From the NCBI GenBank assembly GCA_030606505.1, contig JAUWGI010000002.1, positions 1 through 21,842 of the forward strand: DNA of 21,842 nt. Reading direction: 5' to 3'. The position numbers and the translations under genes are program-made. This stretch comes from Deltaproteobacteria bacterium (GTDB taxonomy: Bacteria > Chloroflexota > Dehalococcoidia > Dehalococcoidales > BS750m-G39). Positions 6,716 to 21,842 of the stretch are shown piece after piece. The notes beneath the pieces are model-generated. The model saw nothing but the letters and a program-made list of their open reading frames with translations. It did no database searches and was not told the origin of the DNA. Each line of letters starts with the position of its first letter. Positions within the stretch are counted from its first letter, which is position 1.

Positions 6716-7006
6716 TTAGGTCTTCTGGATATAAGCTTGGCGCGAAATGTCGTTAGCAAAGCTATAGAAGAGGTCTACAAACGGTTTGCCCTCGCCCTTG
6801 GAAAGCGCCTTGGTCTTCTGCATTGAATCCATGTCTTCGAAGAACATTGTTTTTATGAAGCTCGTCCTGCTTTCGGCTGCCTGCCACACATCATAAGATT
6901 TGCAGCCGCGGGATTCCCAGAATGGCTTGATTTTCTCAGCGGTAACCTTAAGGTATTGGCTGTGCTTCTCCGTCGGAACTTCATAAGTATAAACCATTAT
7001 GACCAT
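6716..7006 (-). CDS. Small NIPSNAP/ABM-like dimeric alpha-beta barrel protein
   Basis: This 96-residue protein begins with MVIMVYTYEVPTEKHSQYLK. A short beta strand, a helix with aromatic and charged residues (KIKPFWESRGCKSYDVWQ), a middle strand (SFIKTMFFEDMDSM) and a C-terminal helix (KPFVDLFYSFANDI) match the dimeric ferredoxin-like alpha-beta barrel of NIPSNAP, antibiotic-monooxygenase and EthD-type proteins. Such proteins often bind hydrophobic substrates or assist neighbouring enzymes; no catalytic residue can be assigned here. The start is ATG 7006 after GGGGGA; ATG 6997 in frame is a weaker choice. It lies between etfB and the second OYE-type gene, in the same direction. Confidence 0.55.
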   Translation of the reverse strand: MVIMVYTYEVPTEKHSQYLKVTAEKIKPFWESRGCKSYDVWQAAESRTSFIKTMFFEDMDSMQKTKALSKGEGKPFVDLFYSFANDISRQAYIQKT

Positions 7007-7081
7007 TGCTTCCCCCTTCTCCTCTGCTCATTTGGCCACAGTTGACAATACTCCTTAAGCGCCATGTAAATCAAGAGCCAT

Positions 7082-7960: not shown

Positions 7961-7979
7961 GACCAACCCTCAAAAATTG

Positions 7980-8249
7980 TTAACCATAGCGCAGGCAGAC
8001 GCCAAAACCGCCCCTGGGATAGCTCCAGTCGATAGCGCCTTTAAGGCAAGCTATACGACAGGCGCCGCATTCTACACAGCTATGCCAGATAAAAGTAACC
8101 TCGCCATCTTTCAAGGTATAGTTCTGAACTGGACAGACATACAGGCATGGCTTGTCAGCGCAATCCTGGCAGACCTCGGAATTGACCCTGATATGGGGGA
8201 CTTCATCCACGCTGAATCTGGTCTGTCTCAGCTTATCCTCTATTATCAT
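7980..8249 (-). CDS. fixX: Ferredoxin-like protein FixX
   Basis: This 89-residue iron-sulfur protein carries electrons from the FixC flavoprotein. Eight cysteines fall in two groups: Cys27, 30, 35 and 39 (CQDCADKPCLYVCP) and Cys58, 61, 64 and 68 (CVECGACRIAC). The tail GAIDWSYPRGGFGVCLRYG is diagnostic: FixX and the C-terminal end of ETF-quinone oxidoreductase share W-x-Y/P-R-G-G-x-G-V. Its ATG overlaps the fixC stop (ATGA), so translation is coupled, as expected for subunits of one complex. Eight cysteines could hold two clusters, although classic FixX proteins may keep only one. Confidence 0.93.
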   Translation of the reverse strand: MIIEDKLRQTRFSVDEVPHIRVNSEVCQDCADKPCLYVCPVQNYTLKDGEVTFIWHSCVECGACRIACLKGAIDWSYPRGGFGVCLRYG

Positions 8250-9547: not shown

Positions 9548-9548
9548 T

Positions 9549-10559
9549 CTATTGCTCCACCGATATCTCTCGTAAGCGTTGGGTTAGAGCCGCCAGCATC
9601 TCTTGGTAATCGCTCACAATGCCCATATCGGCCAGCTTGAAGAAGGGCGCATTTCGATCGTTATTAATAACCACAATAACTTTAGAGTCTTTCATGCCCA
9701 TAGTGTGGTAAATTGAGCCCGAGATGCCAAAGGCAAGGTATAACTTGGGAGCGGCGGTAAGGCCCGTTTGCCCGATCTGCTTCTCTAAGGGAACCCACCC
9801 TTTATCCACCGGCACACGTGATGCCCCGACACATCCGCCCAAAAGCTCGGCCAAATCCTTTAGCAGCTGAAAGCTCTCCTGGCTGTCTATTCCGCCGCCG
9901 CCGGCTATAATAACCTCAGCCTCATCAAGGCGAAGAGTTCTCGGGTCAGCTTTTATAAAGCCCGTTGTCCGGCTGCGTGTTGTCGCCGGTTGAGGCTCAA
10001 CCGTGATAATCTCTACCTTGCCATCGCTCTTGGCAGGTTTGGCATCAATGATGCCAGGTCGCATAGTGGCAATTTGGGGTCTGGATACAGGGCTGATAAC
10101 GGTAGCATCTAACTGGCCACCGTAAACAGGCCTTAGCGCCGATAGCAGGCCATCATCGCTTACCTCTAAAGCGGTGCAATCTGAAGCCAGTCCGGTCTTT
10201 AGTCGAGCTGCCAGCCTGGAGGCGAGGTCTCTGCCGAACACGGTGGCGCCGAACAATATCACTGCGGGGGTTTGTTCAGTGGCCAGGGTCGAAAGTGCCT
10301 CAGTGTATGCTTCAGGGGGATAGCCCGTTAGCGGCCGGTCATTGATAAAATAGACCTTATCGGCTCCATAACGTGAAAGCTCAGATGCCAATCCGGCGGC
10401 GTTATCCCCAAAAAGCAGGGCGCTAAGTTCCTCATCGAGCCTGTCAGCCAGCTTTCGCCCCCAGCAGACTAACTCCAGCGAAACCTCTTGTAGCTCGCCC
10501 AGCCTCTGTTCGGCCAGGACCCAGACCCCTTTATAGTTGTCTTCCGACACGGGCACCAT
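9549..10559 (-). CDS. etfA: Electron transfer flavoprotein alpha subunit (EtfA/FixB)
   Basis: This protein of about 336 residues is the FAD-binding partner of EtfB. The C-terminal FAD domain is unmistakable: GGGGIDSQESFQLLKDLAELLGG, GASRVPVDKGWVPLEKQIGQTG, then APKLYLAFGISGSIYHTMGM and VINNDRNAPFFKLADMGIVSD. The N-terminal half follows the usual alpha-domain pattern with FGATVFGRDLASRLAARL. The gene overlaps the 3' end of the preceding OYE-type gene, and the start is uncertain: GTG 10574, ATG 10559 and GTG 10550 are in frame. I give the ATG; GTG 10550 with GGGGATGG ahead is also plausible. The gene order etfA-fixC-fixX-etfB differs from the usual fixABCX, with etfB placed last. Confidence 0.92.
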   Translation of the reverse strand: MVPVSEDNYKGVWVLAEQRLGELQEVSLELVCWGRKLADRLDEELSALLFGDNAAGLASELSRYGADKVYFINDRPLTGYPPEAYTEALSTLATEQTPAVILFGATVFGRDLASRLAARLKTGLASDCTALEVSDDGLLSALRPVYGGQLDATVISPVSRPQIATMRPGIIDAKPAKSDGKVEIITVEPQPATTRSRTTGFIKADPRTLRLDEAEVIIAGGGGIDSQESFQLLKDLAELLGGCVGASRVPVDKGWVPLEKQIGQTGLTAAPKLYLAFGISGSIYHTMGMKDSKVIVVINNDRNAPFFKLADMGIVSDYQEMLAALTQRLREISVEQ

Positions 10560-12489
10560 CCCCGATTGAGTCACGGAGCTTGCGCGGTGAGAGACACTGA
10601 CCTACGGCATGAAGCTCCTTCACCTGCCCCTTGAGGGAGCGATACAGGGTATCGTTAGCCTCGCCACCTGAAGCGATAACCACCGTATCTACCCCTTTGC
10701 GCTCTCTTTCAGCTTTGGAAAATACATTGAACACGACTACTGTATCCCCTTTTATCTCCTTTACCTTGGTCAGTGGTGTTATGATAACCCCTTTACCTAG
10801 TAATCTATCATAAATGGCTACCAGAGTGCTTTCATCCACCTGGCTGCCAGCAAAAAGGGTCTTGGTCAATAGTTCAACCTTGGCCCCCCGGTCGGCCAAG
10901 AAATCGGCGACCTCTAATGGCTGCATGTGATACTCCTCATCTACCACCACTACATTGTTCCCCACCTTGACTCTTTCCTCGATAACCTCACGAATCTCTA
11001 CCACGTTGACCTTATCTGACCCCGGTAATTTCGGCTTGGCCGGTAGCGAGCCGGTGGCGACGACCACAACATCAGGGTTCTTGAGCTTAACCATGTCGGC
11101 AGTTACCTCGGTTCCTAAATGAACCTCAACGTTGAGTAACTTCATCTGGAATGTATAGTATCTGACAACTTCGGCGAAATCTGCCCTCCCCGGGGCTTTG
11201 GCTACTATATTCAGCTGTCCGCCCAGCTGCTTCTCTTTCTCGTAGAGAGCAACCTCATGTCCCCTCAAGGCGGCAACCCTGGCTACCTCCAGGCCGGCTG
11301 CCCCGCTGCCGATAACCATTGCTCTCTTTTTCTCGATCGCTGGCTTTAGGGCAAGTTCAGCCTCCCTCCCCGCCTCCGGATTGATGGCGCAGGTAAGAGG
11401 TACCGTGGCCTCAAATAGCGGGGGCCAACAGGCATCGTTGCAGGCAATGCATTTGCGAATCTCATCTAGCTGCCCTTCTCGTGCCTTATTTGGTAGCTCG
11501 GGGTCAGCGATGAGAGCTCTGGTCATGCCAATCATATCCGCCTGGTTATTGGCGAGGATAGTCTCCGCCTGTATCGGATCGTTGATCCTGCCTCCACAGA
11601 ATACCGGCAGGCTCACCACTTCCTTAATACCAGCGGCCAGGTAGGCAAATGGCCCCAGAGGGAAATACATGGGAGGAACATGGGGTGTGGGGTATGCCCC
11701 GGCAGCGATGTTCAGATAGTCCAGCTTGCCCGTGGCTTCTAATTTTTGGGCAATCACCTTGGTATCATCCAGGGTCAGCCCGTCCTCGATATACTCGTCA
11801 CCGTCCATCCTCATACCGACTACAAAATCAGACCCTACAGCGGCTCTAACGGCATCGATTACCTCGAGAGGGAGTCTGAGCCGATTCTCCAGGCTGCCGC
11901 CATATTCATCAGAGCGCTTATTAGTTGCCGGAGACATAAATGAGCCAAGGAGGAAGCTGATGACGGCTGAGATTTCAACGCCGTCGTATCCGGCCTCTCG
12001 CATCCTGGAAGCAGCGCTACCGTAGGCTTGTACTATCCCTTTTATTTCATCGATGTCCATTTCATGGGGCATTTCATGTGCGCCCAGGAAACTGGCCGGC
12101 AGGATGCCCTCCATTATCGGAGATGGAGCCAACGCCGCCCCTCCGTAGGCTCGAGGGCTGGCGTATTTACCCGAATGGTGTAGCTGTATGACCACCCTGA
12201 CATCATATTCTTGGATGGCTTTTACCATGGAGGCGAAGGCAGGGATGGCATTATCGTCCTGCGTTGCTACCAGGCGGTGTACTGTAGTGTACGGCGCGAC
12301 TCCGGCGTAAGGCATTATGATTAATCCCACCCCGCCCTTGGCTCTGGTCACGTAGTAACGCATCGCCCGCTCATTTGGCGCACTTATAGACGAGTGAAAT
12401 CTATGGGCGTGGGCATTCATAACTATTCTGTTGGGCACCGTCATTGGCCCGATCTTGAGCGGCGTAAACAGATACCGATATTGGTCCAC
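10531..12489 (-). CDS. OYE-type NADH:flavin oxidoreductase fused to FAD/NAD(P) domain, paralog 2
   Basis: This 652-residue paralog of 4703-6667 has the same plan: an FMN barrel (about 1-340), a [4Fe-4S] site with Cys347, 350, 354 and 367 (CIACNDAC, 12 residues, C), an FAD Rossmann fold with GSGAAG at 394-399, and the same C-terminal end (DSIGDGARVGRQL). The active-site segment after GYDGVEI reads SAVISFLLGSF (about 174-184). It has the normal family length, but Phe replaces the catalytic Tyr and no HGYL or EGYL motif remains. It is the first gene of the minus-strand series. It starts at GTG 12489 and overlaps etfA, so a direct electron link to ETF is a fair inference. Candidate reactions are reduction or oxidation of an enoyl-type or cyclic substrate; the substrate is unknown. 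Confidence 0.87.
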   Translation of the reverse strand: MDQYRYLFTPLKIGPMTVPNRIVMNAHAHRFHSSISAPNERAMRYYVTRAKGGVGLIIMPYAGVAPYTTVHRLVATQDDNAIPAFASMVKAIQEYDVRVVIQLHHSGKYASPRAYGGAALAPSPIMEGILPASFLGAHEMPHEMDIDEIKGIVQAYGSAASRMREAGYDGVEISAVISFLLGSFMSPATNKRSDEYGGSLENRLRLPLEVIDAVRAAVGSDFVVGMRMDGDEYIEDGLTLDDTKVIAQKLEATGKLDYLNIAAGAYPTPHVPPMYFPLGPFAYLAAGIKEVVSLPVFCGGRINDPIQAETILANNQADMIGMTRALIADPELPNKAREGQLDEIRKCIACNDACWPPLFEATVPLTCAINPEAGREAELALKPAIEKKRAMVIGSGAAGLEVARVAALRGHEVALYEKEKQLGGQLNIVAKAPGRADFAEVVRYYTFQMKLLNVEVHLGTEVTADMVKLKNPDVVVVATGSLPAKPKLPGSDKVNVVEIREVIEERVKVGNNVVVVDEEYHMQPLEVADFLADRGAKVELLTKTLFAGSQVDESTLVAIYDRLLGKGVIITPLTKVKEIKGDTVVVFNVFSKAERERKGVDTVVIASGGEANDTLYRSLKGQVKELHAVGQCLSPRKLRDSIGDGARVGRQL

Positions 12490-12547
12490 TGCGTACTCTT
12501 TTCTTATAAACAGGGGTAATTAAATGTACCTGAGCTTAAACCTTCTC

Positions 12548-12576
12548 ATTATTAATCACATTCTATCAGATTGCAA
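12548..12576 (-). promoter_or_regulatory. Candidate promoter of the OYE-ETF-Fix series
   Basis: On the minus strand TTGCAA (12571-12576) and AATAAT (12548-12553) are separated by 17 bases, about 60 bp upstream of the GTG at 12489. Both hexamers fit the sigma-70 consensus moderately. It lies inside the block, to the left of the right-hand repeat, so the cassette would carry its own promoter. The rest of the 203-bp gap holds the repeat and no other clear element. Confidence 0.35.
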
Positions 12577-12624
12577 GCTGTGTGTCGTCAGCAAGAAAGG
12601 GACACTTGGGGGGCTTGCTAAAGA

Positions 12625-12680
12625 ATATGCATGATACGGCGCATCATACGTCTTTATTATACCGGTTAAACCGTGCGTGG
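12625..12680 (-). repeat. 56-bp direct repeat, right copy (orphan dinB start and promoter)
   Basis: This copy is 53/56 identical to 1581-1636. On the minus strand it carries TATAAT and the start of dinB, giving a stub that reads MMRRIMHIL and then stops at 12618-12620. It lies 12 bp beyond the stop codon of the hdr operon. Two dyads are more perfect here than in the left copy: ATGAT-7-ATCAT (12631-12647) and CGGTTAAACCG (12663-12673). These could be a recombinase or repressor site. Confidence 0.9.
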
Positions 12681-12692
12681 AACGGGCTATCG

Positions 12693-13793
12693 TTAATCTA
12701 CAGTGGCGGCAAACTCTTCCGGCTTGAAGGTGGTAACCGGTAGTCCCTCGTCCAGGTCTCTCCCCGGCAGGTAATCAAAGGCGTTCTGGACCGCCCCGCC
12801 TGTTTTCAGGGCGACAGCCCAGAGCGGGATATTAACCGGGCACACGTCGCCACATAGGCCACAGCCTATGCAGGATATGCTCACGTGGAATAATCTTACC
12901 AGCTGGTAGAATGTCGGGGCGGGCAGGACGGGCGCGTACCCCTTCTTCCCCATCTCTGTTTCGTAGTAACGCTGGTCGTGCTCATCGCCGCCTGAATCGA
13001 AGAAGCATACCTTGCAGTAACAAACCGGGCAGACTTTATTGCAGTTACGGCAAACGATGCATTTCTCAAAGACCTTCTGTATGTCGGAGTCTTCCACCCC
13101 GAACTCATCAAGTAGCTCTTGTTTTCTGGCTTGCCTTTTAGCTCTGAGACTGTCAACTACCTCCGATTTAGCTTCTCCCTGGCTGAGCTCTCCGGCCAGG
13201 CCATCGGTAAACTGCTCTGCTTTATCGGTGTTCAGCTGTATCAGGCACTGTTTATCCAAGTCCTTGTTGCCAATCAGAGCCAGGGTTATATCGGCGTTAT
13301 AAGGCACGAAGTGCTCGCAGGCGGCGCAGGCGGGTCTTATGTCGGCAGCAATCTCGCCCTTTTTAACTGCCTCCCAGTATCCGGGGAGCTTCTCGCCGAT
13401 ATTCCCGTTGACACCTGTTTCCAGCGGGTAGACTCCGCCGCAGGTTGAGCTTATCAGCAGGAGATTGTCCAGGCTTCCCTGGCTTCGTTTGATAAGTTCC
13501 GTCAGCGCCCTCAGTTCGCAGGGTCTGACCACGGCGGCGATAGGCTCGGCGGCCGGTTCTACCAGTGTCAGGCGGGAAAGCACCTTGGCCGCGTCTACCG
13601 GCATCAACGGGAAAAGGGGCAAGGCCGCTTCGAGTGCGGCCGGGTCGGTAATGAGCGAATAGGCTACTCCGCCGCTTTCGCCTACCTTGCTGAAGGTAAA
13701 AACCCCCTTGACCTTGCCTCTTTCTAAAAGGAATCTGAGCAGTTCCAGCAGACATTGCTCGGCGCCTTTATTCAGTTTCAGTACCTTAGCCAT
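12693..13793 (-). CDS. FrhB/FdhB-like iron-sulfur oxidoreductase subunit, paralog 1
   Basis: This 366-residue protein resembles the beta subunits of F420-hydrogenase/formate dehydrogenase (FrhB/FdhB), which bind flavin and Fe-S clusters and pass electrons between complexes. The N-terminal half has VVRPCELRALTELIKR (90-102), ISSTCGG (Cys118) and RPACAAC (Cys156, 159). The C-terminal half has Cys245, 248, 251 and 255 (CIVCRNCNKVC), a CYCKVCFF extension (Cys258, 260, 263) and a second cluster at Cys308, 311, 314 and 318 followed by a Pro. No CCG domain is present, so it is not HdrB. The start has AGGAGG and overlaps the preceding paralog by eight bases. It is the last gene of the operon. The family placement is by motif memory; the precise electron partner is unknown. 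Confidence 0.65.
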   Translation of the reverse strand: MAKVLKLNKGAEQCLLELLRFLLERGKVKGVFTFSKVGESGGVAYSLITDPAALEAALPLFPLMPVDAAKVLSRLTLVEPAAEPIAAVVRPCELRALTELIKRSQGSLDNLLLISSTCGGVYPLETGVNGNIGEKLPGYWEAVKKGEIAADIRPACAACEHFVPYNADITLALIGNKDLDKQCLIQLNTDKAEQFTDGLAGELSQGEAKSEVVDSLRAKRQARKQELLDEFGVEDSDIQKVFEKCIVCRNCNKVCPVCYCKVCFFDSGGDEHDQRYYETEMGKKGYAPVLPAPTFYQLVRLFHVSISCIGCGLCGDVCPVNIPLWAVALKTGGAVQNAFDYLPGRDLDEGLPVTTFKPEEFAATVD

Positions 13794-14946
13794 CTCGCGC
13801 CTCCTGTTTGGCGGGGACCGCGGCGTGGGACTGCTCCACCTCTTCGAACTCCTCCTCCTGATAGACCCTCAGGGGGGGAGGTTCATCCCGGCTCCGGCCG
13901 GGGATATAGTCAAAGGCTTCCTGGTTTCTGTTCCCCACCAAGCTAAAGACCTGCGCCACCGGAATGGCGGTGGGGCAGGCGTCTTCACAGGCTCCGCAGG
14001 ATACACAGGAGAGAGACATGTGTAACATGCGCCCGATATGGAAGAGCAGGGTGTCGGGCGGCAGTCTCAGCCCGCCGGCTGCCTCCGCCCTCTTGAGGTA
14101 GTCTTCAAATGAGAATTGCATGTTGTCCGACTCGAAGAAACACTGCCGGCAGTAGCATATCGGGCAGACCCTCATGCAGTTATGGCAGTTTATGCACTTG
14201 CTGAAGGTATCAAGCAGTTTATCCAGGCCTTTACTCTTGGCTTCCAGCTCCTTCTGGGCCTGCCTTTTCTTTTCTACTCTGGCCCCGGTCAGTTTATCCA
14301 CCTGGTCCTTCCACCCGGATATGTCCTCTCCTGCGGCAATGCCGAGGCAGTCCAGGATGGCCTCACCCTTGGGGCTGTTGGGGATGAGTAAAATACCGCT
14401 AGCCTCTTTCCCCGGTACCCCTATGTGTAAATCTTCCGCCCCGGTGGTGGAGAATTTATCGCATATCTGGCAGATTGGCCGTATGCTCTCGCTAGGCCCC
14501 CCTTTAAGAATTTCGGCAAAGGCGTCTTCGGCTTTCTTTGGGTCCTTGGCCCATTCGGCCAGCGGCAGCGCCCCGGGACAATCGATACTGATGAGCCAGA
14601 TATTCTCTAAGTCCACCTGCCCCAGTTTGAATAGCTCAACCGTCGCCCTTAGTTCGCAGGGCCGTATCAGGGCGGCTATCTTCTTCTTCCCCTTGCCAGA
14701 CCGGGTGAGACTGGAAATGGCTTTGGCCCCCTGCACTGACATAACCGGGGGCAGGGGATAGGCATTTTTCAGGAGCTGCCCGTCTCCAATCAGTGAATAA
14801 GCGAATGAATCAGTCCCCGGCGCTTTGGCTGGCATGAGGACAGCGTCAAAACAACCCTGGCTGATTGCCTTTTGCAGGAAAGCTATAACCCTTTCTCTTA
14901 CCCCGCCTTCGGCGGGAAAAAGCGCACCTTTGTCATCGGGAGCCAT
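13786..14946 (-). CDS. FrhB/FdhB-like iron-sulfur oxidoreductase subunit, paralog 2
   Basis: This 386-residue tandem paralog of the next gene has the same motif order: LIRPCELRATVELFKL (94-109), ISIDCPG (Cys123), RPICQIC (Cys159, 162), CINCHNCMRVC (251-261), CYCRQCFF (264-271), and a second cluster at Cys314, 317, 320 and 324. Both end with a related FDYxPGR segment, then diverge; this one has a longer acidic tail (EEEFEEVEQ). The ribosome binding site GAGGT precedes ATG 14946. Tandem, translationally overlapping paralogs suggest a heterodimer, or two versions of one docking subunit for the HdrA proteins encoded upstream. I cannot tell which cofactor donor it serves (NADH, F420 or formate dehydrogenase). 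Confidence 0.65.
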   Translation of the reverse strand: MAPDDKGALFPAEGGVRERVIAFLQKAISQGCFDAVLMPAKAPGTDSFAYSLIGDGQLLKNAYPLPPVMSVQGAKAISSLTRSGKGKKKIAALIRPCELRATVELFKLGQVDLENIWLISIDCPGALPLAEWAKDPKKAEDAFAEILKGGPSESIRPICQICDKFSTTGAEDLHIGVPGKEASGILLIPNSPKGEAILDCLGIAAGEDISGWKDQVDKLTGARVEKKRQAQKELEAKSKGLDKLLDTFSKCINCHNCMRVCPICYCRQCFFESDNMQFSFEDYLKRAEAAGGLRLPPDTLLFHIGRMLHMSLSCVSCGACEDACPTAIPVAQVFSLVGNRNQEAFDYIPGRSRDEPPPLRVYQEEEFEEVEQSHAAVPAKQEARDG

Positions 14947-14982
14947 ATCGACACCTCTTATCGTACACTCTGGTCATTTGGC

Positions 14983-16689
14983 CTATCGTAATACCTCTTT
15001 AAGCTCTTGGTAAATCTGTGGGAAGGTAAAGTGCTTCAGTCTGGCCGCCCCCGAAGGACAGGCGGCGGCGCAGTTGCCGCAGCCGTGGCATAAGACCTCG
15101 TTGACCACTGATATCCGCCGGTCTTCATCGAAGGTAATGGCGCCGTAGGGGCAAACTTCGATGCAGGTCTTGCAGCCGGTACAGAAGCTCTCTAATATCT
15201 GGGAAGTTTTGACTTCCAGTTCTAATTTCCGGCCGGGAACCAGGGCGGAGAGTATCTTGCCGGCGGCGGCCTCGGCCTGCACTATCGACTCGGCGATACT
15301 CTGCGGCCCCCGGGCGCAGCCGATAACGAATACGCCCTCCACCGCCGATGCCACCGGGGAAAGCAGCTGGTGCTCCTCGGCCAGGAAGCCCTTGTCGTCT
15401 TGAGGGATGTTCAGCATTTCGGCAAACTTCCTGGCGTCACTACTGGTTTCCATCGCCGGCAGGAGGATTACCATGTCTACCGCCAGGTCACCTTTGGCGC
15501 CGGTTTCCGTTTCATATTTGACAGTCAGCCCCTTATCACCGCCGGCGATTTCGGTCACCGCCGAGCGGACAAACTCAACCCCGGATTCTCTGGTATCTTC
15601 ATAAAATTTCTGGTTGGCTTTGCCGGGGATACAGAGGTCGGAGTAGAAGTGGGCTATCTTTACTCCCGGCAGCTGGGACTGTAGCATCCGGTCGAACTTG
15701 AAGGAGTAGAGACAGCATACCTTGGAGCAGTAGCCCTTCTCGGCCCGCCCTACGCAGTGGATGATGGCCGCCGACTTGGGCGGCTGGCCGTTTTTGAGCA
15801 GGACTTTGCCTTGAGTCGGGCCGTCGGCGAGGTTCATCTCCTCAAAGTCCAGACTGGTGTAGACATCGTCGAGTGTGCCGTAGCCGTACTGGGGCAGCCC
15901 TTTGGCGTCGAACAGCTCGAATCCGGTAGCCAGCACCACCGCGCCGACATTGAAGTTTTGTTCTTTGTCTTCTTTATCCTCGGCCTTGCTGACCACCTTG
16001 ACCTCAAAATTGCCCAGGAAGCCCAGAATCTGCTCGGCCTCGCTCTCGGTAAGCACCTCGATGTTCTTGCTTTTCTGGAGGCGCTCTATCTCCCCGGCTA
16101 TCAGGCCCGGCCCCGATTCCATATTGACAAAAAGCTTGCTGAAACGCTTGGTTTTGCCTCCCAGGGAGGCGGTTTTCTCGACTAAATAGACCTTCCGGTC
16201 AGGGGCGGCCAGTATCTGGCTGGCTTTAATGCCGGCAATGCCCCCGCCGATTACCAGGACGTCGGGATTGCACTCCATCCCTTTCTTCTCCAGGGCGGTG
16301 TGGTAGTGGACCCGGCTGATGGCGGCCCTTATCTGCCTTATCGCCTTGTCGGTGGCTTCTTCCCCATCCGGGGTGACCCAGGCGCACTGCTCGCGTATAT
16401 TAACTAGCTGGAAGAGGTAGGGGTTAAGGCCGGCCTGCTCGCATACTTTCATGAAGGTGGTTTCGTGCTGCTTGGGTGAACAGGCGGCCACCACCAGGTG
16501 GGTTAAGCCGTTCTCGGTGATACTTTGCTTCAGGTACCCCTGCCCGTCGCCGGAGCAGAGCAGCTTGTATCTATCGGCAACCTCTACGTCTTTAAGCGCC
16601 GAGACCGCCGCCAGCACTTTGTCGATGTCCACTTTATCGGCGATGTTAGTCCCGCACTCGCATACGTATACGCCCAGTCTCTTGGCCAT
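14983..16689 (-). CDS. HdrA-like flavoprotein 1 (N-terminal and C-terminal Fe-S domains)
   Basis: This 568-residue protein is related to heterodisulfide reductase subunit A, the FAD protein that can bifurcate electrons in Hdr complexes. The HdrA N-terminal domain is present (VYVCECGTNIADKVD with Cys10 and Cys12; CSGDGQ at 45; AACSPKQHETTF at 68-79; NIREQCAWV). A Rossmann FAD fold with GGGIAG at 148-153 follows. The conserved GRAEKGYCSKVCC segment comes next. It ends in a two-cluster ferredoxin with Cys503, 506, 509, 513, 534, 537, 540 and 544. The ferredoxin inserted in the middle of classic HdrA, and the CxxC after the FAD loop, are missing (NMESGPGL replaces the usual DCxxC). The ribosome binding site is GAGGT. 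HdrA1 plus a separate MvhD resembles QmoB, which joins these two parts in one chain. Confidence 0.88.
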   Translation of the reverse strand: MAKRLGVYVCECGTNIADKVDIDKVLAAVSALKDVEVADRYKLLCSGDGQGYLKQSITENGLTHLVVAACSPKQHETTFMKVCEQAGLNPYLFQLVNIREQCAWVTPDGEEATDKAIRQIRAAISRVHYHTALEKKGMECNPDVLVIGGGIAGIKASQILAAPDRKVYLVEKTASLGGKTKRFSKLFVNMESGPGLIAGEIERLQKSKNIEVLTESEAEQILGFLGNFEVKVVSKAEDKEDKEQNFNVGAVVLATGFELFDAKGLPQYGYGTLDDVYTSLDFEEMNLADGPTQGKVLLKNGQPPKSAAIIHCVGRAEKGYCSKVCCLYSFKFDRMLQSQLPGVKIAHFYSDLCIPGKANQKFYEDTRESGVEFVRSAVTEIAGGDKGLTVKYETETGAKGDLAVDMVILLPAMETSSDARKFAEMLNIPQDDKGFLAEEHQLLSPVASAVEGVFVIGCARGPQSIAESIVQAEAAAGKILSALVPGRKLELEVKTSQILESFCTGCKTCIEVCPYGAITFDEDRRISVVNEVLCHGCGNCAAACPSGAARLKHFTFPQIYQELKEVLR

Positions 16690-16699
16690 TTCTTAACCT

Positions 16700-17980
16700 C
16701 TATCCCGATCGGGAAAGTATTCTGCCTGCCGTGGCTTCCGCCTCGGCTATCGTCTCGGCTATATCTTTAGGGCCCTGGGCACAGCCGGCAATAAATATAC
16801 CGTCCTGCGCCGTGGCCACCGGGGTAAGGTCCGGTTCCTTCTCGCTGAAAAACCCCTCCCGGCTCTGGGGGATATTCAGCATCCCGGCCAGTTTGGCCGA
16901 GTCGGCCCCCGGTTCCAGCGCCGGGTTAAGGATAACCATATCCGCCGCCAGGGTATTTTCCTTGCCCTCGTCGGTTTTATATTTAACCGCCAGTTCTTTT
17001 GCTGACTCTGAAACTCCGGTTACTTCAGCCCGGATGAAATCAACCCCGCTCTCTTTTACCTTCTGGTAGAATTGTTGATAGGCTTTACCGGGAATGCAGA
17101 GGTCGGAGTAGAATTGGGTTATCTTCAGTTCGGGCAGTTTGTTCTTTAAGAAGTGACAAAGCTTGAGAGCGGCCATACAGCATACCGAAGAACAATAGCC
17201 CTTTTCCTCCCGCCCCACGCAGTTGATGATAGCCACCGACTTTGGTGCCTCTCCGCTCTGGAGGGTAATCTGCCCCTGGGTGGGGCCGTTGGAGGCGCAT
17301 ATCCGTTCAATCTCCATGGCGGAGTAGACGCCGCCCAGCTTCTTATAGCCGTACTGGCTGGTTTTGTTGATGTCGAACATGCTGAAGCCGGTGGCGACGA
17401 CGATGGCGCCGACCTTAAGCTCAAGTTCCTTGTCCTGCTGGTTGAAGTCGATAGCCTCGAAGGCACAAGCTTCCTGGCAGGCCTGGCAATCCTGCCCTTT
17501 GAAGCGCAGGCAGTTCTCAGTATCAATGACGGGGACATTGGGCAGGGCCCCGGCACAGGGAATATAGACTGCCTTTCTCTTGGTGAGCCCTTCCTCGAAT
17601 TCGTTGTCCACCTCTACCGGGCAGGGGTCAAAGCAGGCGCTGCAGCCGATGCAGTTGACCAGGTCGATATATCCGGCCTTTTGTTTGATTTTCACCGAAA
17701 AGTCGCCGGCAGCGCCGCTGACCGCCTCAACCTGGCTGAGCGTCAGCAGCTCGATGTTCTCGTCGGCCAGCAGCTCCTGCTGCTTGGGGGCTATCATGCA
17801 GGTGGCGCAGTCCATGTTGGGGAATACCTCTTCGAACTTGATGACGTTGCCGCCGATATAGGATGTCTTCTCGATGAGGTATACCTTTCTCCCCGAGTTG
17901 GCCAGCAGCAGGCTGGCCTCAATTCCGGCAATACCGGCCCCGATGACCAGCACCGGGGCGTTTTCTTTTTTATCAGTCAT
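16700..17980 (-). CDS. HdrA-like flavoprotein 2 (short, QmoA-like)
   Basis: This 426-residue HdrA-type protein begins directly with the FAD fold (VLVIGAGIAGIEASLL, GxGxxG at 14-19) and lacks the HdrA N-terminal domain. It keeps what HdrA1 lacks: FPNMDCATCMIAPK (Cys58, 61) and an inserted ferredoxin with Cys110, 113, 116, 120 and Cys157, 165, 168, 172. VGREEKGYCSSVCC is shared with HdrA1. It has no C-terminal ferredoxin. Length and plan recall QmoA. ATG 17980 is chosen because GGTGAG precedes it; ATG 17998, which overlaps the mvhD stop as ATGA, is nearly as good. Longer upstream starts would run deep into mvhD and are rejected. It lies 10 bp ahead of hdrA1. Confidence 0.87.
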   Translation of the reverse strand: MTDKKENAPVLVIGAGIAGIEASLLLANSGRKVYLIEKTSYIGGNVIKFEEVFPNMDCATCMIAPKQQELLADENIELLTLSQVEAVSGAAGDFSVKIKQKAGYIDLVNCIGCSACFDPCPVEVDNEFEEGLTKRKAVYIPCAGALPNVPVIDTENCLRFKGQDCQACQEACAFEAIDFNQQDKELELKVGAIVVATGFSMFDINKTSQYGYKKLGGVYSAMEIERICASNGPTQGQITLQSGEAPKSVAIINCVGREEKGYCSSVCCMAALKLCHFLKNKLPELKITQFYSDLCIPGKAYQQFYQKVKESGVDFIRAEVTGVSESAKELAVKYKTDEGKENTLAADMVILNPALEPGADSAKLAGMLNIPQSREGFFSEKEPDLTPVATAQDGIFIAGCAQGPKDIAETIAEAEATAGRILSRSG

Positions 17981-17994
17981 CGCACTCTCACCGG

Positions 17995-18420
17995 TCATAG
18001 TGAAATTTTTGTCTTCATGGGGTTGGGCCCCAGTTCCATAATCTGCCCGGCGAATTGGTTGGCTACCTCCCCGAATCTCTGCCCCTCGGAGGCCGATACC
18101 CAGGCCAGCATGAGCCTTTCCGTGTCCAGCCCCAGGGTCTCCAGGGTTTTCTTTAACAGGGCGAATCGGCGGCGGGCATAGTAGTTCCCTTCTCTGTAGT
18201 GGCAATCGCCCGGATGGCATCCGGCGATAAGCACGCCGTCGGCTCCCTGTAGCAGGGCGGTGGCCACCAGCACCGGGTCAACCCGGCCCGAGCACATCAC
18301 CCTGATAACCGATAGCGATGCCGGGATTTCCAGCTTGGCCGCCCCGGCCAGGTCGGCGCCGGCATAAGAACACCAGTTACAGAGAAAGCCAACTATCCGC
18401 GGTGTGAATCCTTCTCCCAT
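17995..18420 (-). CDS. MvhD-like [2Fe-2S] hydrogenase/heterodisulfide reductase delta subunit, paralog 1
   Basis: This 141-residue protein matches the MvhD/FlpD family, which passes electrons from a dehydrogenase or hydrogenase to HdrA. The motif series is complete: RIVGFLCNWCSYAGADLAG (Cys14, 17), RVMCSGRVD (Cys43), GVLIAGCHPGDCHYREGN (Cys68, 73) and LMLAWVSASEG. The start at ATG 18420 is fixed by GAGG seven bases upstream; in-frame codons further up lie within the tusA gene. It is immediately upstream of hdrA2, as expected for its docking partner. A second copy, sharing the FLCNWCSYAGADLAG run, begins the operon. Confidence 0.93.
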   Translation of the reverse strand: MGEGFTPRIVGFLCNWCSYAGADLAGAAKLEIPASLSVIRVMCSGRVDPVLVATALLQGADGVLIAGCHPGDCHYREGNYYARRRFALLKKTLETLGLDTERLMLAWVSASEGQRFGEVANQFAGQIMELGPNPMKTKISL

Positions 18421-18430
18421 CGATACCTCG

Positions 18431-18655
18431 TTAGAACTGGATTTGCGCTTTGTGCTTGCCGCCGCCCTCATCCAGACAGAAGAGCAGCGTCTTGTTCATC
18501 TTGCCACACCAGGCTTCGACATCTTTGGGAAAAGACTCACAATCAGCCATTACTTCTACGGTGTCTCCAGCGGGAATACTTTTAGCCATTATGGCCAGCT
18601 TCAACACCGGTTGGGGACATTTTAGCCCCAGGACATCCAGGGTATGTACAGCCAT
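18431..18655 (-). CDS. tusA: TusA-family sulfur carrier protein
   Basis: This 74-residue protein carries sulfur as a cysteine persulfide. The family motif GLKCPQPVLKLA has the active Cys13 in Cys-Pro-x-Pro near the N-terminus, as in all TusA proteins. DCESFPKDVEAWC (Cys39, Cys50) is the common second motif in TusA-like proteins of anaerobes, and Cys60 is additional. A perfect AAGGAGGT lies before the ATG. Its neighbours are a DsrE-like protein and MvhD/HdrA, a setting in which TusA would deliver or accept sulfane sulfur for an Hdr-like complex rather than modify tRNA. That role is inference. Confidence 0.92.
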   Translation of the reverse strand: MAVHTLDVLGLKCPQPVLKLAIMAKSIPAGDTVEVMADCESFPKDVEAWCGKMNKTLLFCLDEGGGKHKAQIQF

Positions 18656-18708
18656 AGTTACCTCCTTATTGTTATAGCCTTTACTTCTATGTATTTCAGA
18701 AGGGTATT

Positions 18709-19062
18709 TTAGAAAGAGAAGGTTATATTAGCGTCCGCAATTGAGGCCATAAACGAAGTCGCCCCCACTATTTCCACGCCTTCCCTGAAGTCCTCGGGCT
18801 TCAGGTCCTTATTCTCTAGTGCAAGCTCGCAGACCAGTATCTTGCCGCCCAGCTCAACTATACCGTTGTACAGCTCCACGATGTCGGGCAGGCCCTTACC
18901 GGAGATTTTCTCCAGCTCCCCTTTGACCATGGTCGGGGCGCCGCCGGGGCAGCAGAATATGGTTAAATCATCCCCGCTGCCAGCCGCGCTGGAGCCCAGA
19001 ATCATGGGCGGAAAAATGTTAGATGGTTCTGAACCATTGACTGTGATTGCTACTTTAGCCAC
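18709..19062 (-). CDS. DsrE-family sulfurtransferase-like protein
   Basis: This 117-residue DsrE/DsrF-type protein has the beta strand AKVAITVN at the start, a mid-chain DLTIFCCPGGAP (Cys37, Cys38), and the conserved LGGKILVCELALE with Cys78 in the position of the persulfide-bearing Cys of the family. The C-terminal GATSFMASIADANITFSF completes the fold. The start is GTG 19062, backed by AAAGGAGG. DsrE-like proteins exchange persulfide sulfur with TusA, encoded next. The GCC-rich loop makes it nearer to the DsrE2-like group than to DsrE of the DsrEFH hexamer, but I see no membrane segment. Confidence 0.85.
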   Translation of the reverse strand: MAKVAITVNGSEPSNIFPPMILGSSAAGSGDDLTIFCCPGGAPTMVKGELEKISGKGLPDIVELYNGIVELGGKILVCELALENKDLKPEDFREGVEIVGATSFMASIADANITFSF

Positions 19063-19118
19063 GTAAAACCTCCTTTTAAAAATCTTTGTGACCAGGCTAA
19101 ATGCCAGAGTCTTGTCCC

Positions 19119-19574
19119 TCAGCCAGCCGTCGCTTCTTGTAACCGTTCACTATCTCTGGATAAGCCCTTTCTAATTGGATTGGGGCCAAGCTCCTTTATC
19201 GTCTGGGTAAAATTATTCACTGTTTCGGCCATCTTGGGCCCTTCAGAGGCTGATACCCACTCCAGTCTGAGTCTGTCTTTGCCGATACCCACCGCCTCCA
19301 GGAAGGGGAATAATCCGGTCATTTTTCTTCGGGCGTTTAGATTTCCCTTCTGGTAGTGGCAATCTCCGGGGTGACAACCGCAGACCAGGACACCATCGGC
19401 GCCGGCGACAAAGGCTTTCAGTATCAACCTTTCGTCAACCCGGCCCGAGCACATCACCCTTATCACTCTCATGTTGGGCGGGTATTTTTTTCGCGAGGTA
19501 CCGGCCAGGTCAGCGCCGGCATAGGAACACCAGTTACAGAGGAAACCGATTATCCTTGGTTCAAATTCAGCCAT
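19119..19574 (-). CDS. MvhD-like [2Fe-2S] delta subunit, paralog 2
   Basis: This 151-residue MvhD/FlpD homolog is the first gene of the operon. The motifs are RIIGFLCNWCSYAGADLAG (Cys13, 16), RVMCSGRVD (Cys42), GVLVCGCHPGDCHYQKGN (Cys65, 67, 72) and LRLEWVSASEG. Compared with paralog 1 it has one extra Cys (65) and a longer C-terminal tail with basic residues. ATG 19574 aligns with the start of paralog 1; GTG 19580 two codons upstream is the alternative. It is separated from hdrA2 by dsrE, tusA and the other mvhD, so it may serve a different partner than paralog 1. Confidence 0.92.
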   Translation of the reverse strand: MAEFEPRIIGFLCNWCSYAGADLAGTSRKKYPPNMRVIRVMCSGRVDERLILKAFVAGADGVLVCGCHPGDCHYQKGNLNARRKMTGLFPFLEAVGIGKDRLRLEWVSASEGPKMAETVNNFTQTIKELGPNPIRKGLSRDSERLQEATAG

Positions 19575-19657
19575 TATCACCGTCTCAGACTATCAATCTG
19601 CCCGCCGGCAGCATTATATGTTAAAATTAAGTATGGTAAAAGTAACAGCCAGAAAAG

Positions 19658-19663
19658 TATAAT
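19658..19663 (+). promoter_or_regulatory. -10 box of the CsoR/CstR-family regulator gene
   Basis: TATAAT on the plus strand lies at the left edge of the operator, so transcription would begin inside it and be autoregulated. The -35 area is weak. The leader to ATG 19732 is about 60 bases. Confidence 0.45.
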
Positions 19664-19688
19664 ACCCTATAGGGGTATGGTACGTCAA
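19659..19688 (-). promoter_or_regulatory. Promoter of the mvhD-dsrE-tusA-hdr operon
   Basis: On the minus strand TTGACG (19683-19688) and TATTAT (19659-19664) are spaced by 18 bases, about 85 bp upstream of the ATG at 19574. The -35 hexamer matches five of six consensus bases. The spacer and -10 are covered by the CsoR-type operator at 19662-19678, so a bound repressor would block RNA polymerase directly. Confidence 0.7.
19662..19678. promoter_or_regulatory. CsoR/CstR-type operator
   Basis: The 17-bp sequence ATACCCTATAGGGGTAT is a near-perfect dyad: ATACCC and GGGTAT arms around a TATAG centre. It has the A/T-TACCC...GGGTA form known for CsoR-family repressors that recognise a G/C tract within flanking A/T. 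It is centred between divergent genes for a CsoR-family protein and a sulfur-carrier/HdrA operon, and it overlaps both promoters. Confidence 0.8.
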
Positions 19689-19731
19689 GTCAATAGGCAG
19701 TTAAGAATTAAATTAACTTATGGAGGATAGC

Positions 19732-20013
19732 ATGGCTGAGCAAGAGGTGTCGAAAGCAATGCTGGTTAATCGTCTCAAAAAGATTGAAGGGCAGATTCGC
19801 GGTATTCAGAAAATGCTCGGAGATGACCGTGAATGCGAGGGTATTCTTACCCAGTTGGTGGCAGTACGCGCTGCTATTGAGAGTGTCGGTGCCCTGGTGT
19901 TGAATAACTATATGAAGATTTGCTTCCGTAAAGGTGAGGAGACGGAAGAGGATAGTATCAGTTCGTTAGCCCGTTGTGTGGCTCTTTGGGGCAGGGTGCA
20001 TGTCGGGGAATAG
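19732..20013 (+). CDS. CsoR-family repressor, CstR-like (persulfide-sensing type)
   Basis: This 93-residue all-helical repressor of the CsoR/RcnR/CstR family has KAMLVNRLKKIEGQIRGIQKML (about 8-29), then RECEGILTQLVAVRAAI with Cys35 and NNYMKIC with Cys64. The two Cys are 29 residues apart, as in CsoR and CstR. At the position of the copper-binding His (four before the second Cys) there is Tyr60, so the Cys-His-Cys copper site is incomplete while both reactive cysteines remain. This is the CstR pattern, in which persulfides link the cysteines and release DNA. Cys82 is additional. The start is fixed by GGAGG before ATG 19732. It is divergent from the sulfur operon and shares an operator with it. 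Confidence 0.88.
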   Translation: MAEQEVSKAMLVNRLKKIEGQIRGIQKMLGDDRECEGILTQLVAVRAAIESVGALVLNNYMKICFRKGEETEEDSISSLARCVALWGRVHVGE

Positions 20014-20019
20014 GCTACT

Positions 20020-20211
20020 TCACAAATCATGTTGTCGGGAGATAAAGTCTTTAACCCGGCGCTCGAAAGTCGGGCGCTTGAGCAGCACCCGGCGCTGGCA
20101 TTTGAGGCATCTGATGCCGATGTCGGCGCCCACCCTTACCACCTGCCACTGGTCACTGCCGCAGGGGTGCCGTTTCTTGAGGCGGACGATATCACCCGGG
20201 CTTATCTCCAT
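20020..20211 (-). CDS. DUF951 family protein
   Basis: This 63-residue protein matches DUF951, a small basic family found mostly in Firmicutes and Chloroflexota. The match covers [20 protein letters not shown], then [26 protein letters not shown]. His15, Cys17, Cys35 and Cys38 could form a small zinc site, and the many Lys/Arg residues suggest RNA or DNA binding; no function is established. It sits 10 bp after pyrF in the same direction and is probably co-transcribed, and it converges on the repressor gene (6 bp gap). Confidence 0.88.
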
Positions 20212-20221
20212 GCCGGCTACC

Positions 20222-21043
20222 TCAGGGAGTCAGGGTGAGGGTGGAACGGTAGTAGTTGATTCTCTCCCGCAGGTCGGCGGCCACCCGCCGCGCCGCCTCG
20301 GCGAAGTCCTTGTCCTGGGAGGCGTATATAACCTGCCGTGACGAGGTTAAGATAGCTTTCCGGCCCATGGCGTTGACCCCGTAGCGCACTGACGAAGCCA
20401 GGTCGCCCCCCTGGGCACCGATGCCGGGTATAAGCAGTAGCATGTCGGGGTGGCTCTGCCTTATTAGCTTTAGTTCCTCGGGGTAGGTGGCGCCCACCAC
20501 CAGCCCGATGTTACCCTGTTTGTTCCAGAGGGCGGCTCTGATGGCCACTATCTCGAAGAGGGAGAGCTGCGCCTTCTCGGTCTCGAAGCGCAGGTTCTGG
20601 AAATCGACGGCGCCGGGGTTGGAGGTGCGGCAGAGGACGAAGACTCCCTTGTCCCAGTACTCGATAAAAGGCTCTATCGAATCAAAGCCGAGGTAGGGGT
20701 TGACGGTAGCGGCGTCACAGCCCAGAGTGACAAAGATAGCCCTGGCGTAGGCCCGGGCGGTGTTGCCGATGTCGCCCCGTTTGCCGTCGCCGATTACCGG
20801 GATATGTTCCGGTATGCATTTAATGGTGCGCTTGAGGATATCGATGCCGTCGTCGAGGGCTTCGTAGAAGGCGAAGTTGAGCTTGTAGGCGCAGACCAGC
20901 TCCGAGGTGGCGTCGATAGTTGACTTGTTGAATTTAAAAACGTCCACTTTAGGCGGCATCAGCTCCGGGTCGTGATCAAGCCCGATGCAGAGCAGGCTGT
21001 TGTTCTTATCGGTGGTATAGTTCAGCTTTTCGTCGAAGTTCAC
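20222..21043 (-). CDS. pyrF: Orotidine 5'-phosphate decarboxylase (type 2)
   Basis: This 273-residue enzyme converts OMP to UMP, the last step of de novo pyrimidine synthesis. The catalytic charged network of the type-2 form is seen: [10 protein letters not shown] (Lys54) and [18 protein letters not shown] (Asp86, Lys88, Asp91). [12 protein letters not shown] and [10 protein letters not shown] follow, and near the C-terminus comes [10 protein letters not shown], the phosphate-binding loop. The start is GTG 21043, preceded by AGGGGG at good spacing. A longer in-frame start at 21139 is rejected because the promoter (TTGACG-17-TATCAT) lies within that extension. Confidence 0.95.
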
Positions 21044-21061
21044 CTCACACCCCCTGCGTTG

Positions 21062-21090
21062 ATGATACCAGCCGCTAATATAGGCGTCAA
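21062..21090 (-). promoter_or_regulatory. Promoter of pyrF
   Basis: The minus strand shows TTGACG (21085-21090), a 17-base spacer, and TATCAT (21062-21067), 18 bases before GTG 21043. It is the best sigma-70-like promoter in the window and decides the pyrF start. Confidence 0.75.
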
Positions 21091-21103
21091 GTGGGTTATT
21101 AAA

Positions 21104-21132
21104 TTGTGGCTGGTTGGCGGCGGTGCTATAAT
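21104..21132 (+). promoter_or_regulatory. Promoter of folC, close to the start codon
   Basis: TTGTGG (21104-21109), 17 bases, TATAAT (21127-21132). The -10 ends nine bases before GTG 21142, so the transcript would have almost no leader. It overlaps the upstream region of the divergent pyrF promoter. Confidence 0.6.
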
Positions 21133-21141
21133 TAGCCAACC

Positions 21142-21842
21142 GTGAACTACCAGCAGGCTATAGACTACATCAACAGCTACACCGACTACGAAAAAATAGG
21201 CATGCCCCACGACCCCGCCTTCTATGACCTCCGCCGTGTCGATGAGTTATTGTCTCTTTTAGGCAACCCCCACCAGAAAGCTGGCTCTATCCATATCACC
21301 GGCACCAACGGCAAGGGTAGCGTGGCCGTCATGGTGGCCTCGGCGCTGGCCGCATGCGGTTATACCACCGGGCTTTACACCTCCCCCCACTTCCACACCT
21401 GGCGGGAGCGAGTCCAGGTTGACGGGGAGCTTATCTCCGAGGACAAATTGGCCCAGCTGGTGACCGAGCTTAAGCCGCGGGTGGAAGTGGTCAATGAGAA
21501 GGCTACATATGGTAAGCTGACCACCTTCGAGTTCCTCACCGCGCTGGCCTTCGCTTACTTTGGCCAGAAAGGGGCCGAGTTGCAGGTGCTGGAGGTGGGG
21601 CTGGGTGGCAAGTTCGACGCCACCAGTGTGGTCACCCCACTGGTCTGTATTATCACCCCCGTTGACTTTGACCACATGGATGTGCTGGGCAATACCTTAA
21701 CCGAGATTGCCGCCGAGAAGTGTGGCATTATCAAGCCCGACAGCATGGTGGTGACCGCCCCCCAGCCCCCCGAGGCCGCCGGGGTAATCAAGGAAGCCTG
21801 CCGCGAGCGCCGGGCCAAGCTGCTCACCGTGGGTAAAGATGT
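21142..21842 (+). CDS. folC: Dihydrofolate synthase/folylpolyglutamate synthase, N-terminal part
   Basis: The first 233 codons are in the window; the gene runs off the right edge. FolC adds glutamate to dihydropteroate and folates using ATP. The sequence shows the N-terminal helix with NYQQAIDYINSY, the P-loop HITGTNGKGSVAVMVASAL (54-60), LYTSPHFHTWRERVQVDG, the Ω-loop region TTFEFLTALAFAYF, and LEVGLGGKFDATSVVTP, where the family normally has GGRLDATN. VDFDHMDVLGNTLTEIAAEKCGIIK continues the ATPase core. The GTG start at 21142 has no ribosome binding site, and the -10 box is nine bases upstream, so a leaderless mRNA is likely. Confidence 0.93.
   Translation, partial: MNYQQAIDYINSYTDYEKIGMPHDPAFYDLRRVDELLSLLGNPHQKAGSIHITGTNGKGSVAVMVASALAACGYTTGLYTSPHFHTWRERVQVDGELISEDKLAQLVTELKPRVEVVNEKATYGKLTTFEFLTALAFAYFGQKGAELQVLEVGLGGKFDATSVVTPLVCIITPVDFDHMDVLGNTLTEIAAEKCGIIKPDSMVVTAPQPPEAAGVIKEACRERRAKLLTVGKD

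Follow-up and report, generated by a model that had tools for sequence, protein, structure and literature searches.

A split-HdrA operon with TusA and DsrE in a Dehalococcoidia genome as a candidate persulfide oxidoreductase

What might a pair of HdrA-type flavoproteins do when it is encoded beside the sulfur carriers TusA and DsrE? This question is raised by an operon in the first 21,842 nt of contig JAUWGI010000002.1, the whole of which is called the window below. We found a single leftward operon (19580–12693, minus strand) encoding MvhD1, a DsrE-family protein, TusA, MvhD2, HdrA1, HdrA2, FrhB1 and FrhB2 in that order, with 10 to 56 bases between neighbouring genes and a single overlap of 8 bases when the mvhD2 start is taken as ATG 18420 (Table 1). 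All eight genes lie where the original prediction, made from the sequence alone, had placed them, and a divergent CsoR/CstR-type repressor gene was found in addition to its list. With about even confidence, we read the operon from its genes as encoding a soluble flavin complex of the HdrA type that acts as a persulfide (sulfane-sulfur) oxidoreductase; it would be induced by persulfide, reduce TusA-bound sulfur and perhaps bifurcate electrons to ferredoxin. The module may be an undescribed way to use sulfur for energy or to remove sulfur. The original prediction had not recognised the combination as a described system, and no description of it was recognised among the open-access papers listed in literature searches (subscription papers and preprints lay outside this scope); Qmo membership was rejected and the sHdr gene set was not found.

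The module and its sulfur carriers

Pfam and NCBIfam scans assigned both MvhD proteins to FlpD/MvhD (E 8e-54 and 3e-52), the DsrE-like protein to DrsE_2 (E 1e-9) and DsrE (E 6e-5), and the TusA protein to the TusA family (E 8e-16). The best NCBIfam match of both HdrA1 and HdrA2 was the HdrA2 family (E 1e-130 and 1e-154), under the full-length cut-off in each case; the longest open frame of hdrA1 starts at 18220 inside mvhD2, and the start at 17980 gives 426 aa. FrhB2 (366 aa) passed PF04432, which was not listed for FrhB1 (386 aa), and an FrhB1 profile matched FdhB of solved Hdr complexes (E 6e-35). As predicted, no CCG/HdrB, HdrC, hydrogenase or sulfite-reductase family was found among the 23 window proteins (Pfam; 19 also NCBIfam), so the window lacks the HdrB and HdrC genes that define a canonical HdrABC operon; no QmoC was found in it either.

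Table 1. Features of the operon and its upstream region (window coordinates)
Feature	Position	Strand	Description
mvhD1	19119..19580	-	FlpD/MvhD family, [2Fe-2S] electron-transfer subunit; start GTG 19580 or ATG 19574
dsrE-like sulfurtransferase, 117 aa	18709..19062	-	DsrE/DrsE_2; Cys78 invariant
tusA, 74 aa	18431..18655	-	persulfide Cys13 (CPxP) and second invariant Cys39 in the loop after strand 2
mvhD2	17995..18420	-	FlpD/MvhD family; ATG at 18420 (family scans used 18426)
hdrA1, 426 aa	16700..17980	-	thioredoxin-reductase-type FAD domain, inserted two-cluster ferredoxin domain, FAD-side cluster motif, DCxxC (Cys197-type) motif; lacks N-terminal and C-terminal Fe-S domains
hdrA2, 568 aa	14983..16689	-	N-terminal Fe-S domain, FAD domain with FAD-side cluster motif, C-terminal two-cluster ferredoxin domain; lacks inserted ferredoxin domain and DCxxC motif
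frhB1, 386 aa	13786..14946	-	FdhB/FrhB-like Fe-S protein
frhB2, 366 aa	12693..13793	-	frhB1 paralogue, 35% identity to frhB1; PF04432 over cut-off
CsoR/RcnR-family repressor, 97 aa	19720..20013	+	divergent from operon; PF02583; Cys39/Cys68, spacing 29; putative CstR-like persulfide sensor
candidate operator	19657..19683		11-nt inverted repeat, 82% complementary, 5-nt spacer; weak, consensus matches only

Relatives were collected by scanning GTDB species genomes with an FrhB1 alignment, and the best 80 of 98 were kept; FrhB1 had 1693 homologues at E ≤ 1e-3 among 7995 candidates scored, and the 120 listed were 67–92% identical. Loci in which an HdrA1-size gene was followed by an HdrA2-type gene were counted as split-HdrA loci. 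There were 24 distinct ones in 26 rows (L023/L120 and L025/L122 being repeats), 23 from the GTDB scan and one, L121, from a search of the window's class. Linkage was counted for split loci with at least 1.6 kb of upstream sequence, which left out eight rows. The results showed that tusA and dsrE both lay within 1 kb upstream on the same strand in every one of these loci (18/18, or 19/19 with the window). Among the rows left out, L047 has both genes and L030 and L032 have tusA on contigs that begin before dsrE; L023, L025, L028 and both repeats start too close for an upstream check. Loci with a fused HdrA (~1000 aa, no split pair) had no dsrE match (0/39, some of the loci being short); they came from 38 distinct contigs, as L072 and L125, both included, share one, and loci that also had a split pair were excluded. 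Four fused loci (L053, L054, L057 and L096) had weak TusA-like matches, and the three alignable ones lacked the CPxP cysteine. TusA and DsrE are thus tied to the split HdrA pair.

The usual gene order in relatives was dsrE-tusA-mvhD-hdrA1-hdrA2-frhB1-frhB2-mvhD, with the second mvhD at the end of the operon in most relatives and in front in the window. Carrier records were named as Dehalococcoidia, WOR-3, Stahlbacteria, Aminicenantes, Cloacimonadota, Thermoplasmata/Euryarchaeota or plain 'bacterium'; L029 and L085 are near-identical, and L142 is L037's own locus fetched again. The eight-gene set is a conserved module of bacteria and archaea, and because its gene order recurs in both, the operon is not a product of chance. 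Within the window's class, a close HdrA2 was found in 4 of 393 genomes, an even draw from a larger group: the window's own and G273, G129 and G195 (71–81% identity). A further 13 class genomes matched HdrA2 at 36–41%, and the nine looked at all had other HdrA contexts. Five loci from other class genomes (L127–L131) carry clusters with two to four HdrA-type genes (539–1133 aa), mostly with MvhD and ~380-aa proteins, and differ from this module. Genome-wide searches covered 32 carrier genomes, some of them picked on partial loci (among them L026, L031, L048, L055, L056, L060 and L091, the last showing only frhB1-frhB2-mvhD).

The module's sulfur carriers have a distinctive cysteine pattern. The DsrE Cys78 was invariant (22/22 module rows). 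TusA belongs to its family by PF01206, the CPxP cysteine and its fold, the model having a pLDDT (predicted local distance difference test) of 93.4 and a TM (template modelling) score of 0.88 to E. coli TusA. Cys13 and a second cysteine, Cys39, were kept in 24/24 module rows and in all 120 listed of the 250 homologues found; Cys60 was present in 22/24 module rows and 120/120 listed homologues. Six CPxP TusAs from outside the module had Asp (5) or Tyr (1) at position 39, one of those with Asp being the window genome's other TusA (L001), and an alignment placed Asp there in E. coli TusA. In the TusA model, Cys13 follows strand 1 and Cys39 strand 2 of the beta-alpha-beta unit; since these strands are consecutive, both cysteines are predicted to lie at the same edge.

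A complementary HdrA pair and its ancestry

HdrA1 aligned with residues ~146–561 of HdrA in solved Hdr complexes, inserted ferredoxin domain included. All 25 rows kept both DCxxC cysteines, the eight inserted-ferredoxin cysteines and the four cysteines on the FAD (flavin adenine dinucleotide) side, and all 25, at 417–466 aa, were too short for the N-terminal domain. The four N-terminal cysteines of HdrA2 were kept in every row reaching them (23/23 or 24/24), as were its four FAD-side and eight C-terminal cysteines (25/25). At the DCxxC site, a cysteine at either position was found in 0/24 HdrA2 rows with letters there, four rows having one at a neighbouring position. The HdrA2 counts cover rows other than L025/L122 (frame broken), L046 and partial genes.

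In the M. wolfeii complex, the N-terminal cluster of an HdrA receives a ligand, Cys197, from the partner HdrA, and tandem HdrAs of anaerobic methanotrophic archaea (ANME) with the same complementary loss have been interpreted as heterodimers (PMC9012536). The module's proteins have this complementarity, HdrA2 having the N-terminal domain and lacking Cys197 and HdrA1 the reverse. Judged by their sequences, the two are close paralogues that lost complementary domains. In the path described for Elp-Hdr, FdhB-like ElpB and MvhD-like ElpC pass electrons to the partner HdrA's FAD, from which a C-terminal shuttle cluster takes them to the partner's inserted ferredoxin (PMC12350162). Given such paths and the complementary domains, HdrA1 and HdrA2 together would hold one complete bifurcation-capable half. 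The pair could be regarded as a natural experiment, in which the domains have been shared out and one complete bifurcation half is left, and it could simplify the study of how HdrA works.

Compared with the bifurcating HdrABC-FdhAB and Elp-Hdr complexes of methanogens (PDB 7bkb, 8rvu and 9t1s), the pair has all HdrA cluster ligands between its two members, together with an electron arm of MvhD and FdhB-like proteins. The window operon differs in that its HdrA is split into a complementary pair, HdrBC and FdhA are missing, and DsrE and TusA are added. The ANME tandem or fused HdrAs (HdrA5/6, 12/13 and 3/4; PMC9012536) and bacterial HdrL share with the module both FdhB-like neighbours and an N-domain/Cys197 complementarity that implies a heterodimer; the module has TusA, a term absent from the main text of PMC9012536.

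The ancestry of the pair was assessed with two trees built on the FAD-domain region (115 and 44 rows) and approximately unbiased (AU) tests of constrained groupings, with QmoA/QmoB rows taken beside aprA of Desulfobacterota-type genomes. In the first tree, a label set by length (S2) also took L037_2 and L046_3, HdrAs outside the module's clade; the second tree was built without both. HdrA1, HdrA2 and L049_10 grouped together (100/99), apart from QmoA/QmoB and from both HdrL halves. This group is firm as a whole: without L049_10, support for HdrA1 plus HdrA2 was 93 in the first tree and 85/42 in the second, and the HdrA1 rows were not always one clade (support 51 in the first tree, two groups in the second). 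L049_10 (644 aa), a full-length HdrA encoded beside a split module, was placed with the pair in both trees and is a possible picture of the unsplit ancestor.

These trees bear on the view that the module is a Qmo variant or a split version of fused HdrL, with TusA and DsrE as a local add-on. HdrA1 and QmoA are near each other in size (426 and 423 aa), QmoABC likewise has two HdrA-like subunits, one of ~425 aa, and QmoB carries an MvhD-like part; the complementary domain layout is shared with bacterial HdrL, 22 of 43 fused proteins fitting the full motif pattern. QmoA and QmoB nevertheless formed their own clade (100/100), and the AU tests rejected joint clades of HdrA1 with QmoA (p 9.8e-5), of HdrA2 with QmoB (p 4.4e-5) and of HdrA1 with the HdrL N-half (p 0.004); HdrA2 and the HdrL C-half stood apart in the tree. 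The window has no QmoC, and AprA was over cut-off in none of the carriers. We regard this view as very improbable, and the earlier hint that these HdrA genes are relatives of QmoA/QmoB was not upheld. The tree position and the rejected joint clades indicate that the pair probably arose by a duplication of its own, separate from that of Qmo, and that its HdrL-like layout is probably a parallel change, the HdrL halves sitting elsewhere in the tree. The trees were built without ANME sequences, and a common origin with the ANME tandem HdrAs is possible.

Electron supply, partners and the proposed reaction

Five MvhD cysteines were conserved in 111–112 of 112 MvhD rows from all fetched loci. CofE of F420 synthesis was matched in 2/32 carriers (one over cut-off), and three archaeal control genomes gave a match. 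With CofE so rare, F420 use by the carriers appears unlikely and F420 was dropped as the usual donor; the module's hosts differ in this from those of the methanogen complexes. From domain and profile matches, the predicted core of two HdrA flavoproteins fed through MvhD and FrhB-like modules is still the best reading, as a putative complex.

We infer complex formation, the reductive direction, bifurcation, the donor, the disulfide step and the ligand of the repressor alike, in a model that would run as follows. HdrA2 and HdrA1 would form one asymmetric pair, in which the N- and C-terminal Fe-S domains of HdrA2 would carry the electron arm (FrhB1/FrhB2 with MvhD) and HdrA1 would give a flavin with side cluster and the inserted ferredoxin domain. 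DsrE and TusA would deliver sulfane sulfur, and Cys39 of TusA would resolve the persulfide on Cys13, with release of sulfide and formation of a Cys13–Cys39 disulfide. The HdrA complex would then reduce this disulfide with electrons from a non-F420 donor at the FrhB flavin(s), a low-potential electron optionally passing to ferredoxin, and the CstR-like repressor would open the operon as persulfide accumulates.

DsrC is a known two-cysteine sulfur carrier. A bolder form of the model, which we hold as tentative and somewhat doubtful, makes the module's TusA subfamily a DsrC in miniature: it would contain the resolving cysteine itself, and its internal disulfide would be reserved as substrate for a flavin-bifurcating complex built on an HdrA heterodimer. 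By its second cysteine, this TusA points to a type of protein disulfide carrier that would be new next to DsrC and CoM-S-S-CoB. If the miniature-DsrC form were true, it would mean energy-conserving sulfur reduction independent of dissimilatory sulfite reductase and F420, by a pathway common to Dehalococcoidia, Aminicenantes, WOR-3-type bacteria, Cloacimonadota and Thermoplasmata.

Several observations weigh against the persulfide-oxidoreductase reading. The carriers are uncultured, and the evidence fits sulfur respiration and detoxification alike. The DsrC family was found in 6/32 carriers (G433, G435, G436, G437, G443 and G449), all reached via Aminicenantes loci and none with DsrA over cut-off, so TusA need not be the sole redox sulfur carrier there. 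YeeE/YedE-type importers were present in only 8/32 carriers. Two MvhD and two FrhB proteins exceed the need of one arm, and the fold model of FrhB1 was poor (pLDDT 59.8). The CstR-like gene was found in the window only, with no relative in the other fetched loci, including L121. Two genomes of the window's own genus lack the operon, a stretch of ~19 kb (1070–20035) missing from the syntenic place. To these are added the HdrB-like genes, found at E ≤ 1e-40 in 29/32 carriers (two of them over the family cut-off) and near the module in 6/31 loci (L027, L037, L045, L046, L048 and L058; in L046 ~5 kb away), so the disulfide chemistry may fall to a partner HdrBC.

The HdrB-like genes are the ground for supposing an accessory role of the module in the service of an ordinary HdrABC, encoded nearby or in trans, whose HdrBC would reduce the TusA/DsrE-derived disulfide, the split HdrA pair with FrhB and MvhD merely supplying electrons. 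The CCG domain of the module-adjacent HdrBs was confirmed in L048, the others being assigned by similarity. Pairwise identity places these HdrBs in three or more lineages, which suggests that they became associated with the module more than once, and in G426 the sole HdrB-like gene of the genome is the module's neighbour. Yet 25 of the 31 module loci showed no HdrB in the fetched sequence (several of them short), HdrB is common in the window's class without the module (86/148 genomes), and the window's genome, 67% complete as an assembly, gave no HdrB-like match better than E 2.6e-14. A partner HdrBC for the module is possible, and we judge the accessory role as a whole unlikely but of appreciable weight. 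Since HdrB is common in both carriers and class, its absence is no argument and was dropped as one: the predicted lack of HdrB and HdrC holds for the window operon but not for the carrier genomes.

DsrA was over cut-off in 0/32 carriers (one weak match, 4e-4), as was AprA (11 weak matches, best 3e-12). In five Desulfobacterota-type control genomes, AprA was over cut-off in 4/5 and DsrA in 3/5, with a fourth DsrA in two pieces. Sulfate reduction by Dsr/Apr in the carriers is therefore unlikely, as far as gene matches tell. The operon is a concrete, testable candidate for reduced-sulfur handling in uncultured sediment anaerobes (Dehalococcoidia, Aminicenantes, WOR-3 and others) without DsrA or AprA over cut-off.

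The same genes could be used oxidatively, the sulfane sulfur of TusA/DsrE being oxidised and its electrons confurcated to ferredoxin or NAD(P), as in sHdr-type sulfur oxidation. In sulfur oxidisers, Hdr-like genes are flanked by genes of the TusA and DsrE types (PMC4175335, PMC11582611), two-cysteine sulfur-sensing repressors govern oxidation operons elsewhere (PMC10451225, PMC9918477), and HdrA reactions may also proceed backwards, as proposed in PMC9012536. The sHdr systems thus resemble the module in their Hdr genes, sulfurtransferases and repressor; their gene set includes two HdrC/HdrB pairs, however, and the module operon has none. The lack of DsrA and AprA over cut-off also speaks against oxidation, in a search that did not extend to LbpA and other oxidation genes. 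We consider oxidative use rather improbable.

YeeE/YedE transporters touch the module in a few relatives. In L120 (the same locus as L023), a close relative, hdrA2 and frhB1 are separated by an insertion (3263–4622) of a YeeE/YedE sulfur transporter and another TusA, which has Tyr at position 39. In L046 (12745–18619) and L055, a transporter and an ordinary TusA directly follow the module, and L046 also has rhodaneses and an MpsC-domain gene. These three adjoining transporters, each with a TusA, were counted in favour of the persulfide-oxidoreductase reading; YeeE/YedE import was dropped as a general part of the module on the carrier count. The YTD cluster of sulfur disproportionators is defined as yedE, tusA, dsrE and chp1-3, a definition without hdrA, mvhD or frhB in PMC8780430 and PMC12998232. 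The module shares tusA and dsrE with it, and identity was ruled out on the lack of Hdr genes in the published definition; PF04143 was found in neither the window nor its genome (G000), in a search that did not extend to the chp genes.

Regulation and genomic setting

The divergent repressor matched PF02583 (E 2e-23) as well as InrS, CsoR and 7mq1. Its two cysteines are 29 residues apart, the same spacing as Cys31 and Cys60 of CstR (PMC9774590), and four residues ahead of the second Cys, where InrS and CsoR have His, the repressor has Tyr and 7mq1 has Asn. The latter shares one sequence entry with 7mq2; 7MQ2 and 7mq3 are named as CstR structures (PMC9774590, PMC8879271). The CsoR fold family, the cysteine spacing and the lack of the Cu-binding His all agree with CstR, and the protein is putatively a CstR-like persulfide sensor. 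Promoter-like hexamers of the leftward operon, a −35 (from 19688) and a −10 (to 19659), have an inverted repeat between them (consensus matches); three promoter-like sites were found against 0.8 in shuffles, and the repeat sequence occurs once in the window.

A second regulator type was found elsewhere: an ArsR-family gene with two invariant cysteines (6/6) stands just upstream of dsrE in six of seven Aminicenantes loci (L037, L038, L041, L044, L050 and L060). A two-cysteine ArsR repressor of Hyphomicrobium senses sulfane sulfur (PMC10451225, PMC11582611), and YrkD, of the CstR type, regulates a gene cluster that includes homologues of dsrE and tusA (PMC9918477). By analogy, the presence of two unrelated two-cysteine regulator families at the same place favours sulfane sulfur as the signal at module promoters. 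The window resembles CstR/YrkD-controlled operons in having a CsoR-family two-cysteine repressor with dsrE/tusA homologues in its regulon; those operons carry SQR and persulfide dioxygenase (PMC9918477), whereas the window has an anaerobic Hdr-type complex instead.

TusA acts in tRNA thiolation in other bacteria. The module could accordingly be concerned with sulfur trafficking for biosynthesis or with persulfide stress relief (tRNA thiolation, cofactor or Fe-S assembly, persulfide clearance) and have no energy role, which would suit the protection against sulfide and sulfane sulfur given by a CstR-type regulon with tusA/dsrE homologues (PMC9918477). Such a role would leave eight genes invested in a bifurcation-type core, in a genome whose second, ordinary TusA (L001) is able to serve biosynthesis, and we think it quite improbable.

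The window is contig C60 of an 835-kb assembly whose named relatives are Dehalococcoidia/Chloroflexota. Misbinning was rejected, since pyrF of the same contig is 91–93% identical in two same-genus genomes. In both of these genomes, which lack the operon, pieces of 1–1069 and all of 20036–21842 align nearly next to each other, with only remnants left of the gene for DNA polymerase IV (383–1603). These remnants suggest that the ~19-kb stretch was deleted there, rather than gained in the window.

Downstream on the same strand (4703–12489) lie genes for two Fe-S flavoenzymes like old yellow enzyme (OYE)/BaiCD, EtfA/EtfB, a FixC-like and a FixX-like protein and a small protein with an ABM domain; by family resemblance, they seem to form a reductase set linked to Etf. 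Further along are a C_GCAxxG_C_C putative redox-active protein (4049–4687; PF09719, E 1e-11) and a PEP (phosphoenolpyruvate)-utiliser mobile-domain protein of the PRK08296 group, under cut-offs (1774–3483).

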